IMG/VR virus record: IMGVR_UViG_3300036760_000301
Span: 1-35,046 of that record
From: a virus
Direction: 5' to 3' (one strand)
DNA length: 35,046 nt
Made by a program: the position numbers and the translations under genes. Each line of letters opens with the position of its first letter. Position 1 is the stretch's first letter. The notes under the pieces are model-generated. The model did not search any database. It was given only the letters and a program-made list of their open reading frames with translations, and was not told the DNA's origin. This document shows positions 194 through 35,046 of the stretch, piece by piece.

Positions 194-225
194 TTGCGCC
201 GTATTGTAATCGACGCGTATCTTTG
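194..225 (+). promoter_or_regulatory. Bacteroidota-type promoter for the tRNA-like locus
   Basis: TTG at 194-196, a 21-base spacer and TATCTTTG at 218-225 match the Bacteroidota consensus (-33 TTTG/TTG and -7 TAnnTTTG). Transcription would start near 231, only a few bases before the tRNA-like fold that begins at 235. No coding start follows before two terminators, so the product is most likely a short non-coding transcript. Confidence 0.7.
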
Positions 226-234
226 CACCCACAT

Positions 235-327
235 AGCGGGCGCTGGTCTTAGGTAGAACCACCCCCTAATCGCGTGGCACAAGCGCGAGGGTATGGGAAG
301 CTGGGGGTTCGAATCCCTCCCCCGCTA
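235..327 (+). tRNA. tRNA-like gene, anticodon arm unresolved
   Basis: The T arm is canonical: GGGGG (303-307), loop TTCGAAT, CCCTC (315-319). The acceptor stem pairs 235-241 with 320-326, with one C-C mismatch at its inner end. The D arm pairs TGGT (244-247) with ACCA (258-261) around a loop containing AGG. The region between (262-302) does not fold into a normal 17-nt anticodon arm; it forms ACCC (261-264) with GGGT (289-292) enclosing a TCGCG/CGCGA hairpin (270-288) whose loop lacks the usual U33. CCA is not encoded. It may be a degenerate class II tRNA, a tRNA mimic, or a tRNA folding in a way I did not find. I assign no amino acid. Confidence 0.5.
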
Positions 328-340
328 CAAAGGTCGAATC

Positions 341-446
341 GGTGAAGTGGCTGTGTTATTCGTCGATAATAGTAGAAGGGGACTATATTTCAGACGTGAA
401 CCCCGATCCTTTCGGTTCGATCCTCCTTCTAAGCCGAAAGAGCCAC
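341..446 (+). ncRNA. structured RNA next to the tRNA-like gene
   Basis: This stretch is co-transcribed with the tRNA-like gene if the promoter at 194-225 is used. By eye it forms a branched fold: GTGGCT (347-352) pairs with AGCCAC (441-446), TTAT/ATAA makes a small hairpin (356-369), and a 9-bp stem (373-381 with 423-431, one G-U) encloses a GAACC/GGTTC hairpin (398-418). A T-loop-like GGTTCGATCC sits at 414-423, but it lacks a proper T stem and no ordinary cloverleaf fits. It could be a decayed tRNA or a phage small RNA. Bases 441-446 are also needed by the terminator stem, so the two folds exclude each other. Confidence 0.35.
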
Positions 447-500
447 CCCCTTAAACTTAACGCGTGGAAAGCGACGAGACGGGGGCGGCTTCATTTTTTT
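441..500 (+). terminator. rho-independent terminator with long loop
   Basis: AGCCACCCCC (441-450) pairs with GGGGGCGGCT (481-490) with one internal mismatch, leaving a 30-nt loop, and is followed by a T-rich run to 500. It would end the tRNA-like transcript. The right arm GGGGGCGGCT recurs in the second terminator downstream. Confidence 0.6.
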
Positions 501-4804: not shown

Positions 4805-4824
4805 ACGTCGCCCCCCAAGTAAAC

Positions 4825-4848
4825 AAGCCCAACCTTTCGGTCGGGCTT
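4825..4848. terminator. bidirectional hairpin between convergent genes
   Basis: AAGCCCAACC (4825-4834) pairs with GGTCGGGCTT (4839-4848), one mismatch, around a TTTC tetraloop. It sits between the end of the rightward tail operon and the end of the leftward gene, where a shared terminator is expected. The T tracts are short on both sides. Confidence 0.65.
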
Positions 4849-4874
4849 TCGGTTTCACTTAAATCTAAGCTATG

Positions 4875-5096
4875 TTATATTTTGGCGTGGGCGTTGCGAT
4901 GGACGGATTCGGCTTTTTGCGCCTCTTGATAGCGCGTAAACGCCTTAACCGCCGAGGCTTTGAGCGACGCCCTTCGTTCGCCCGTTGCGGTCAAATCCAA
5001 AATATCCGAGTCTATCGCGGCGTGTAATGCCTCTAACGCTAGCGCCCTTCGTCGCGCAAGGTAGTGGGCCTCTAAGATTATATCGTTGGTATCCAT
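4875..5096 (-). CDS. small reverse-strand protein, unknown function
   Basis: This 73-residue protein (MDTNDIILEAHYL...) is the only gene read leftward. The ATG at 5096 is preceded by TATTTTTG (5108-5101) and, 21 bases further, TTG (5132-5130), so the mRNA is probably leaderless; a longer in-frame start would lie upstream of that promoter's start point. The protein is largely alpha-helical, with acidic and basic residues alternating (LARRRALALEALHAAIDSD, KASAVKAFTRYQEAQKAE), and has no recognisable domain. Its own strong promoter, opposite direction and position next to the gene-free region suggest a regulatory or early role, but nothing in the sequence proves it. Confidence 0.6.
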   Translation of the reverse strand: MDTNDIILEAHYLARRRALALEALHAAIDSDILDLTATGERRASLKASAVKAFTRYQEAQKAESVHRNAHAKI

Positions 5097-5100
5097 TCGG

Positions 5101-5132
5101 CAAAAATACGAATCATATCGCAACCCCGCCAA
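5101..5132 (-). promoter_or_regulatory. leftward Bacteroidota-type promoter (leaderless)
   Basis: On the reverse strand TTG (5132-5130), a 21-base spacer and TATTTTTG (5108-5101) fit the -33/-7 consensus. The start codon at 5096 lies five bases beyond the -7 box, where transcription should begin. Confidence 0.7.
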
Positions 5133-5550
5133 CCCCTATCGACAAAACTATAAATATATTTTTAGTTACGCTATTTATTGAATATCTATAAATTACGACC
5201 ATAGCGCTAGGGTCGGCGATATGGTCGCGCCGCAAGCGAGTGGTTCGGCTTTTCCGAACAACTGAATCCAAGGGCTTCGATTTCGACGTGTTTGGTTCAG
5301 TCGCCAAATAAACCAATTTGACGGGCTTAAACCAAATCAACCGCCAAAACCACGACTACCACCACTAAACCCCGCCAATCGTCGCCAAAAGCGGCAAAGC
5401 CGGCAACGTCGCACCCCAATCCCTTTCCGTCGCGACGAAACCCCCACCCCAAATCATTCACAAAATCAATGAGACGGAATCGGGTCGCGCTAAAATACCA
5501 ACACCATTGAAAAAAAACACGTGTGCGCGAGCGCGGCGCGGGCGTTTCAC

Positions 5551-5583
5551 TACTAGTAATCTACTAGTAATCTACTAGTAATC
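5551..5583. repeat. three 11-bp iterons (TACTAGTAATC)
   Basis: TACTAGTAATC occurs three times without gaps at 5551-5561, 5562-5572 and 5573-5583. Each unit contains the palindrome ACTAGT, and an ACTAGTAG in the opposite sense occurs at 5650-5657. Period 11 places the copies on the same face of the helix, consistent with cooperative binding of a phage regulator or initiator. Confidence 0.85.
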
Positions 5584-5718
5584 TATTGTGTTTACCCCCT
5601 CAAGGGGCGACAAGCCCCCAAGAGGGGGGCGGATTATTAATAATTATTAACTAGTAGCTCGTGTGCGTGACGTGCGAGGGGGCGGCAGGGCGGGGGCAAG
5701 GGGTTGGCTTTCCGGCTT

Positions 5719-5748
5719 ATCGCCGTCGCCAACCGCCCCCAGCCCGCC
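5719..5748 (+). repeat. 30-bp dispersed repeat, intergenic copy
   Basis: These 30 bases (starting ATCGCCGTCGCC) are identical to 14173-14202, where they encode a Ser/Pro-rich linker of the prohead protease. The intergenic copy is not in any convincing reading frame. It suggests past recombination or duplication between the protease gene and this region. Confidence 0.85.
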
Positions 5749-5844
5749 CCCTCTCTTTGAAAATATTATTAATTTGTCAATAAACTTCAATATTTATTTG
5801 TGTAATATTGTATGATGGGATTATATTTTGAATGTATTTAGCTA

Positions 5845-5852
5845 TATATTTG
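5845..5852 (+). promoter_or_regulatory. possible -7 box of the late operon
   Basis: TATATTTG fits TAnnTTTG and lies in an AT-rich tract 22 bases before the first gene of the terminase operon. A TTTTG at 5826-5830 is only 14 bases upstream, shorter than the usual 19-21, so this promoter may be weak or need an activator, as late phage promoters often do. Confidence 0.4.
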
Positions 5853-5874
5853 CAAGATAAATTAAGCTTTAAGT

Positions 5875-23175: not shown

Positions 23176-23679
23176 ATGAATACGACCCCCGCAGCCACCG
23201 CCCTCGCAGCCTACGCAGCCGCCTCCGCCGCCGCCTACGCCGCCTACGCCGCCGTCGCCCTCGCAGCCGCCTACGCAGCCGCCGACGCAGCCGACGCCGC
23301 CTACGCAGCCGCCTCCGCCGCCGCCGCCGCCTCCACCACCCTCGCATCCTACGCCGCCTCCGCCGCCGACGCCTCCGCCGCCGCCGACGCCTCCGCCGCC
23401 GCCGACGCCTACGCCGCCGCCACCGCCGCCGCCTCCACCACCCTCGCATCCTACGCCGCCTCCGCCGCCGACGCCTCCGCCGCCGCCGACGCCTCCGCCG
23501 CCGCCGACGCCCTCGCAGCCGCCACCCCAATCGGCGACGCTCTATCTGCATATAGAATCGCTATCGCCGTCGCCGATAACGAAACAAATGCGTTCGCTAG
23601 ATACCAAGGCTACGAGCGCGCGAGCAAAACTCTGAGAAAAACACTTGACGGAATAGTAATACAATCAAGCAACGAATAA
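23176..23679 (+). CDS. alanine-rich repeat protein
   Basis: A 167-residue protein, first in early operon 1. Residues 1-118 are almost only Ala with spaced Tyr, Ser, Asp and Thr, in short registers such as AAYAAASAAA and SAADASAAADA. This should form one or more long helices, like alanine-rich antifreeze-type or filamentous repeat proteins. The last 50 residues (IGDALSAYRIAIAVADNETNAFARYQGYERASKTL...) look globular and helical. An 81-bp block is exactly duplicated in the gene, so repeat number likely varies. GCC is used for nearly every Ala. Similar Ala-rich proteins occur in other phages without known function. The Arg-rich frame on the opposite strand is an artefact of this composition. Confidence 0.75.
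   Translation: MNTTPAATALAAYAAASAAAYAAYAAVALAAAYAAADAADAAYAAASAAAAASTTLASYAASAADASAAADASAAADAYAAATAAASTTLASYAASAADASAAADASAAADALAAATPIGDALSAYRIAIAVADNETNAFARYQGYERASKTLRKTLDGIVIQSSNE
23329..23409 (+). repeat. 81-bp exact repeat, copy 1 (in Ala-rich gene)
   Basis: Identical to 23431-23511, with starts 102 bases apart. Both encode STTLASYAASAAD-type helix, in frame (27 codons), and are themselves built from shorter GCC-rich units. Confidence 0.9.
23431..23511 (+). repeat. 81-bp exact repeat, copy 2 (in Ala-rich gene)
   Basis: Second copy of the block at 23329-23409. In-frame duplication without stop codons suggests expansion and contraction by slippage or recombination. Confidence 0.9.
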
Positions 23680-33937: not shown

Positions 33938-34835
33938 ATCCCCCGTCGCGCACTACGGCGGCAAGGCGAATATGGTGGGGCACATCCTCCCGCTCATTCC
34001 GCCGCACGAATTGTATTGCGAGCCTTTTTGCGGGGGAGCGAACGTGTTTTGGTCGCGTCCCTTGCTTGCAAGCGGACAACCGCCGTCGCCTATTGAAGTC
34101 CTTAACGACCTTAACAGAGACCTTATCAACTTCTATCGCGTCTTTAAAGATAACCCCGACCGCCTCGTTGCAATGATCGCCGGGACGTTGCATAGCCGCG
34201 CCGAGTTCGACCGGGCTAGGGACGTACTACGCAAGCCCGCAGACCACGACGCGACCACCCGCGCGTGGGCGTATTGGGTGACGGCTTGTATGAGCTACAA
34301 CGGCAAGGGCAATAACTATGCTTTCGGCAATAAATTACCATCGGATCGGCCCAAGAGGTTTGATCGTTGCACCAGGTCCACCGCCAACCGCCGCGAAGCC
34401 TTGCAGGTCGTGGACGCGGGCGGCGTGAACGTCTGGGCGAAGCGGCTCGCGCTAGTGAACGCGGAATGTAAGGACGCGCTTTATTGCATAAAGACTTATG
34501 ATACCAAGAGGTCGTTCTTTTATTGCGACCCGCCGTATATCAACACCGAGCAGGGTAACTACGCGGGGTACGGAGAGCCGCCTTACATTGCGCTCCTTGA
34601 AACGCTGGCGGGGATTAAGGGTAAATTCATCCTTTCGTCCTATCCCAACGCGATCCTTGCGCTAGCGGTCGCCGAGTACGGCTGGCGGGTGGATAGCTTC
34701 GATAAGTCGTTAAGCGCCGCGAAGGCTGTGGACGGCAAGCGCGTCGAACGCCGCACGGAATTGCTGGTACGCAACTTCGACGACAACATCCTAATAGGAG
34801 CGCCCGCTTCTAATAGGAGCTTTCAATTATTTTAG
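33921..34835 (+). CDS. Dam-type DNA N6-adenine methyltransferase (D12 class)
   Basis: The 304-residue enzyme has the class signature: 'PVAHYGGKANMV' at the start, motif I EPFCGGANVF (residues 34-43) for the methyl donor, and motif IV DPPY (203-206) in FFYCDPPYINTEQGNYAG. Length is usual for the family. It would methylate adenine in a short palindrome, likely protecting phage DNA from restriction or marking replicated strands. ATG 33921 is preferred, since the longer frame overlaps the preceding gene. The last codons (ILIGAPASNRSFQLF) lie on the CTAATAGG repeats that flank the 48-bp array, so repeat DNA encodes its C-terminus. Confidence 0.9.
   Translation: MGVPSKSPVAHYGGKANMVGHILPLIPPHELYCEPFCGGANVFWSRPLLASGQPPSPIEVLNDLNRDLINFYRVFKDNPDRLVAMIAGTLHSRAEFDRARDVLRKPADHDATTRAWAYWVTACMSYNGKGNNYAFGNKLPSDRPKRFDRCTRSTANRREALQVVDAGGVNVWAKRLALVNAECKDALYCIKTYDTKRSFFYCDPPYINTEQGNYAGYGEPPYIALLETLAGIKGKFILSSYPNAILALAVAEYGWRVDSFDKSLSAAKAVDGKRVERRTELLVRNFDDNILIGAPASNRSFQLF
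34790..34817. repeat. CTAATAGG repeats at right flank
   Basis: CTAATAGGAGC occurs twice (34792 and 34810 region), 18 bases apart, in the opposite sense to the CTATTAGG copies at 137-190. The 3' end of the methyltransferase gene is built on them. They flank the array on the other side of the circular junction. Confidence 0.75.
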
Positions 34836-34879: not shown

Positions 34880-35046
34880 CCACGGCATTCTTCCTCCGAT
34901 TATTTGTTGTTCGCGATCAAGAAATTACCACGGCATTCTTCCTCGCTAAATTTGTGTCGGGCAAATGAGAAATTACCACGGCATTCTTCCTCGCTAAATT
35001 TGTGTCGGGCAAATGAGAAATTACCACGGCATTCTTCCTCGCTAAA
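34880..35046. repeat. 48-bp tandem repeat array, right end
   Basis: Cores start at 34880, 34928, 34976 and 35024, exactly 48 bases apart. The first unit keeps the period but has a different 24-base middle (CGATTATTTGTTGTTCGCG...) between the conserved stretches; the others match the left-end units. The last 85 bases equal positions 1-85. Confidence 0.95.

Follow-up and report, generated by a model that had tools for sequence, protein, structure and literature searches.

Positions 194 to 500 of the viral genome analyzed here would encode, in a reading over which belief and doubt are about evenly balanced, a transcribed, non-decoding chimera built on the captured top half of a host tRNA-Met and probably trimmed by tRNA-end enzymes. 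The window is the whole of IMG/VR virus record IMGVR_UViG_3300036760_000301 (35,046 bases). A preliminary description had placed a consensus promoter, a tRNA-like fold, a second branched RNA, and a terminator in this region, with no gene among them. Its core proposal, a promoter-driven, non-decoding RNA with a tRNA module, fits the evidence given below, and the second RNA is not supported as a distinct structure. The absence of a gene was borne out: the element contains no long plus-strand reading frame, and there is no convincing gene upstream of the ATG at 573.

A single 48-bp tandem repeat recurs at either end of the record (1-127 and 34920-35046), and the two ends overlap exactly over 85 bases; the genome thus looks circular or terminally repetitive, opened within the repeat, and the record is probably near complete. 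Inverted copies of GCCGTGGTAATTTCT lie alongside the end repeats, and repeats of CTATTAGG/CTAATAGGAGC occur near the record ends at 129-190 and 34791-34820; this region may serve in packaging or as an origin of replication. Profile searches identified a terminase, portal, endolysin, protease, helicase/primase, exonuclease, and D12 DNA methyltransferase, and many of the virus's proteins matched no family. The portal's relatives among isolated phages are exclusively phages of Nonlabens and Bacteroides, i.e., Bacteroidota phages, and since the promoter described below is also of the Bacteroidota type, the host probably belongs to the Bacteroidota and possibly to the Ignavibacteria. Because terminase relatives reach 34% identity at most and searches of viral contigs gave no relatives of either the first gene product or the portal, the virus is, by these comparisons, an orphan. 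Elsewhere in the window, a second stretch without a recognized gene (4805-5874; 1.07 kb) contains CTACTAGTAAT three times (5550-5585) along with several G+C-rich hairpins, and a long CCGCCG-rich tandem repeat (23189-23526) lies within the open reading frame at 23176-23679.

The consensus promoter of the preliminary description is present on the plus strand at 194-225, but it is of the Bacteroidota sigma-ABfr type rather than sigma-70, and a scan of the promoter region found no sigma-70-like site. It consists of TTG (194-196), a 21-base spacer, and TATCTTTG (218-225), which fits the sigma-ABfr consensus, TTTG/TAnnTTTG (PMC7366714, PMC6847099). The TATCTTTG octamer occurs five times on the plus strand of the whole window against 0.26 expected: once before the RNA (218), three times close upstream of genes (560, 23137, and 33107), and once within a gene (8986). 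A TTG-N18..22-TAnnTTTG pair arises in 1.4% of shuffles of 128-555. Since the T of the promoter element has been placed at −12 (PMC6847099), transcription is predicted to start at about 230/231. By the same rule, transcription from the copy at 560 would start at 572, one base ahead of the in-frame ATG at 573, and the mRNA of the first gene is possibly leaderless.

At the other end, the intrinsic terminator proposed to close the locus was confirmed at 440-500 (plus strand), where a stem (440-450/481-491), most of whose pairs have probabilities above 0.9, is followed by T7 at 494-500, one of only two T7 runs on the plus strand. A simple terminator scan gave no excess over shuffles in this region and missed the structure because of its long loop; as modeled, it is a sound intrinsic terminator, with the proviso that both promoter and terminator of the element rest on consensus matches. 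A second intrinsic terminator follows on the same strand at 527-556, with a 12-pair stem (stem-loop 527-552) and T6 at 551-556. The downstream part of the transcript between these signals and the tRNA-like part (331-438, plus strand), which had been described as a second branched RNA, has no supported structure or family: an Rfam search returned nothing meaningful, and the fold energy of the whole transcript is at chance level (z = −0.21 versus shuffles). A search for antisense targets of the RNA within the genome gave matches of 12 to 13 bases only.

The part of the element that most clearly connects it to tRNA is 303-329 (plus strand), an exact copy of the 3' end of an elongator tRNA-Met comprising the T arm (303-319), the 3' acceptor strand (320-326), A73 (327), and then CA. 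The T arm, with the loop TTCGAAT, stands as originally described, save that one of its five pairs is G-U. Exact matches to 303-329 were found at 43 loci in about 85,000 genomes, and each of the 43 is an elongator tRNA-Met(CAU) gene in a record from Ignavibacteria or related Bacteroidota, a confinement due in part to the fact that the 27-mer leaves out tRNA genes encoding CCA. The shorter stretch 305-327 is present in 25 viral contigs, 24 times within tRNA-Met genes called by ARAGORN and once within a tRNA-Met-like sequence (L092). When 231-499 was searched against 391 Ignavibacteria-class genomes, matches appeared in 181; among the matches listed, all were confined to about 303-340 and most started exactly at 303, and none of the 391 genomes contained a full-length match. 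With exact matches found only in host tRNA-Met genes, 303-329 is most simply explained as derived from host tRNA-Met. The same search turned up five tRNA 3'-end matches with an exact 106-base spacing in one genome (G446, contig C83, 120969-121418).

The element thus has 27 bases identical to the elongator tRNA-Met(CAU) of Ignavibacteria/Bacteroidota, and CCA is unencoded in both; it differs in that its 5' two thirds are unrelated, it has no anticodon arm, and about 94 bases separate its acceptor ends. The 72 bases at 231-302, compared with about 200 tRNA 5' parts, are similar only at the level of shuffles (P = 0.77), and a full-length diverged tRNA-Met was rejected on comparison of the 5' part with tRNA-Met alone (P = 0.98). 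This upstream part nevertheless contains the strand TAGCGGG at 234-240 (plus strand), which pairs perfectly with 321-327; in the host tRNA register, A235 is position 1 and T234 pairs with A73. Between the two acceptor strands lie a weak D-arm-like hairpin with GG in its loop (244-261, plus strand; pair probabilities of 0.37 to 0.72) and, in the place of the anticodon arm, a TCGCG/CGCGA hairpin (270-288, plus strand) whose loop is not of the U33 type. The stretch 255-310 also resembles the terminator at 439-492 to a degree reached in 7 of 2,000 shuffles, a post hoc observation.

Taken alone, the acceptor complement is weak evidence (P = 0.013 when anchored near the predicted start and 0.068 anywhere). 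With the tail fixed, shuffling the upstream part gave an intact T arm plus a seven-pair acceptor helix drawn from the first 14 bases in 0.45% of cases, and the same joint minimum-free-energy criterion held for 0.25% of random genome windows, although shuffles test only what shuffles model and the feature was picked by a reader scanning the whole window. The acceptor helix has a probability of about 0.98 in 231-330 versus 0.02 in 231-499, and in the calculated ensemble of the longer RNA the tRNA-like form makes up a minor share; extension to 505 restores it as the minimum-energy fold. The calculated balance between tRNA-like and other folds of the transcript is therefore delicate, and during transcription the tRNA-like form would emerge first. 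Of the tRNA-like fold first proposed, then, the acceptor helix (234-240/321-327) and T arm remain, while neither a tRNA call nor the folding energy, which is ordinary (z = 0.20 versus shuffles for the tRNA-like part), supports it further.

Software found no decoding cloverleaf, in line with the preliminary description. ARAGORN called no tRNA or tmRNA under default, intron, mitochondrial, or tmRNA settings, and Rfam gave no tmRNA match. The general tRNA model (RF00005) scored 16.1 bits against a gathering threshold of 29, with the alignment limited to the T arm and both other arms deleted. The best Rfam match, tRNA-Sec (RF01852) at 234-327, reached 25.4 bits against 47 (genome-wide E value of 1.3e-4), and no TCA corresponding to its UCA anticodon occurs in any anticodon loop of the element. 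A purpose-built covariance model trained on 35 phage tRNAs had its best match in the window at 285-326 (24.4 bits; E value of 1.3e-5). Because the alignment deletes the anticodon and D arms, it essentially scores the T arm, and such scores call for caution since a 28-bit match falls inside an open reading frame of L065. Two hallmarks of tRNA are present, namely, a T arm with a TTCRANY loop (303-319) and an acceptor stem (234-240/321-327); by both pair probabilities and sequence comparison, there is no anticodon arm that would present a decoding triplet and U33.

The element as a whole is known in a single copy. We found no relatives of it: DNA searches of phages and plasmids gave no match, pattern searches that included the insert and terminator or the terminal repeat returned nothing, and the sequence around terminase relatives showed no comparable intergenic RNA. 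A pattern search for long RNAs with exactly the same acceptor gave four matches, of which three are ordinary viral tRNA-Met genes, and the TAGCGGG upstream of those three is due to chance. Separately, these searches brought up viral tRNA-like genes that ARAGORN misses (L188, L246, L203, L194, L216, L215, and others), which combine a good acceptor and T arm with long, non-canonical lower halves; L188, L246, and L203 have the stretch GAGTGAAACGGA in common, and several of the missed genes contain a CAT-containing loop. In L190, L241, and L217, which are tRNA-Met-like or other tRNA-like genes, about 20 to 40 extra bases in the anticodon loop resemble small introns.

In the chimera reading, a Bacteroidota phage would have taken 27 bases, comprising the T arm and 3' acceptor strand, from the elongator tRNA-Met gene of a host, and these would now form part of a small non-coding transcription unit. 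From a start 3 to 4 bases ahead of the matching 5' acceptor strand, the polymerase would run to the 440-500 terminator. The RNA would fold into an acceptor-plus-T-arm stack in which the D/anticodon half has been swapped for unrelated sequence, so that it could not decode. Host RNase P and RNase Z may then trim this top half, freeing the downstream RNA, and CCA may be added to it, since none is encoded; the product would be a stable, non-decoding, tRNA-shaped RNA, which would most likely serve as a processing or stability module or else compete for enzymes that recognize the top half of tRNA. We favor this reading because it explains promoter, pairing, and terminator together, although it is unusual. 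In its favor are the framing promoter and terminator, the 27-base identity, the joint acceptor and T-arm fold, the tRNA-Sec match over 234-327, the portal relatives confined to Bacteroidota phages, and the failure to find an integrase or resolvase that would account for the fragment as an attachment site. The lack of tRNA similarity in the upstream part, the weak acceptor complement on its own, the ordinary fold energy, the minor share of the tRNA-like form in 231-499, and the lack of relatives of the whole element count against it.

The exact identity with a host tRNA 3' end raises the main alternative, one left out of the preliminary description, namely, that 303-331 is an attP core, a host tRNA-Met 3' fragment that restores the split tRNA gene, and that the acceptor complement and promoter are coincidental. 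A host-identical stretch running from the T stem to the tRNA 3' end and preceded by sequence without tRNA similarity is the classic signature of such sites, and these fragments are very common, with 3' tDNA fragments in 3,760 of 3,919 mapped islands, 1,836 using the T-stem region (PMC4383910). Candidate arm sites are the direct repeats at 129-144 and 175-190. However, tyrosine integrases are the only ones known to target tRNA genes (PMC4383910), and searches with Pfam, PHROGs, and NCBIfam recognized no tyrosine or serine recombinase, integrase, or resolvase in the apparently near-complete genome, nor did the tyrosine integrase profile PF00589 match anywhere in it in a search that included positive controls, an absence that holds insofar as the record is near complete and its genes are recognizable. 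No lysogen of the virus was found, and a portal search of 395 genomes returned distant relatives only. The element shares with attP and attR tRNA fragments the host-identical piece and differs from them in having no integrase found, a promoter just upstream, and a matching 5' strand, and its joint fold from the predicted start, at the shuffle and window frequencies given above, is improbable by chance. On balance, we consider an attachment site rather unlikely.

It is also improbable that the element is a dead relic, in which recombination left a piece of host or phage tRNA-Met behind an old promoter and any RNA made is functionless. Phages commonly carry canonical tRNA-Met genes that end in this way (the 25 viral loci above), conservation of the element is not seen in any relative, and its fold energy is ordinary, all as such a relic would have it. 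Gradual decay, though, does not leave 27 bases undrifted beside a remainder that is wholly unrelated, and the compact genome keeps the promoter, the matched 5' strand, and the terminator. It is very improbable that software overlooked a decoding tRNA whose anticodon arm is unusual or carries an intron, for although ARAGORN, run at half its threshold and permitting introns, proposed a tRNA-Arg(ACG) (235-328; 15-base intron), other lowered-threshold calls in the same 620 bases overlap and contradict it, the D-arm and anticodon-arm sequences have no similarity to tRNAs, the RF00005 match covers the T arm only at 16.1 bits, and the pairing probability of the anticodon stem is near zero.

Acceptor/T-arm stacks such as the one the chimera would form are recognized by RNase P, RNase Z, the CCA-adding enzyme, and EF-Tu. 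The toxSAS FaRel2 provides a precedent for recognition of the tRNA top half alone: it reads the acceptor stem, and a tRNA-Gly minihelix is among its substrates (PMC11559606). The YrlA-type bacterial Y RNAs, known in mycobacteriophages, resemble the element in being non-decoding and in their tRNA-like module, and a competitor role against anticodon nuclease has been suggested for the YrlA tRNA-like RNA (PMC7790460); the element itself was rejected as a YrlA Y RNA, having no Rfam Y RNA match in a genome without a TROVE (PF05731, Ro60/Rsr) gene. The complete tRNAs of phages T5 and T6 counter tRNA-targeting defenses (PMC11555353, PMC13096335) and are likewise phage-borne tRNA sequences with their own promoter, but they are decoding, whereas the window element cannot decode. 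A role for the RNA as a decoy against tRNA-targeting defenses is possible but speculative. That it is a dedicated phage tRNA mimic, joining a host tRNA-Met top half to a new lower half, with its own promoter and host-processed ends, and engaging or blocking a host enzyme or toxin that reads the acceptor/T arm, we regard as a doubtful extension.

These readings differ in what they would mean for the virus. Were 303-331 an attP core, it would predict, for an orphan virus, both the lineage of the host and the site of insertion, and it would show how easily attachment fragments can be mistaken for tRNA mimics. An expressed chimera would amount to a viral tRNA mimic built from the host's own tRNA end, and it would offer a simple route by which a phage can engage tRNA-processing or tRNA-targeting enzymes.
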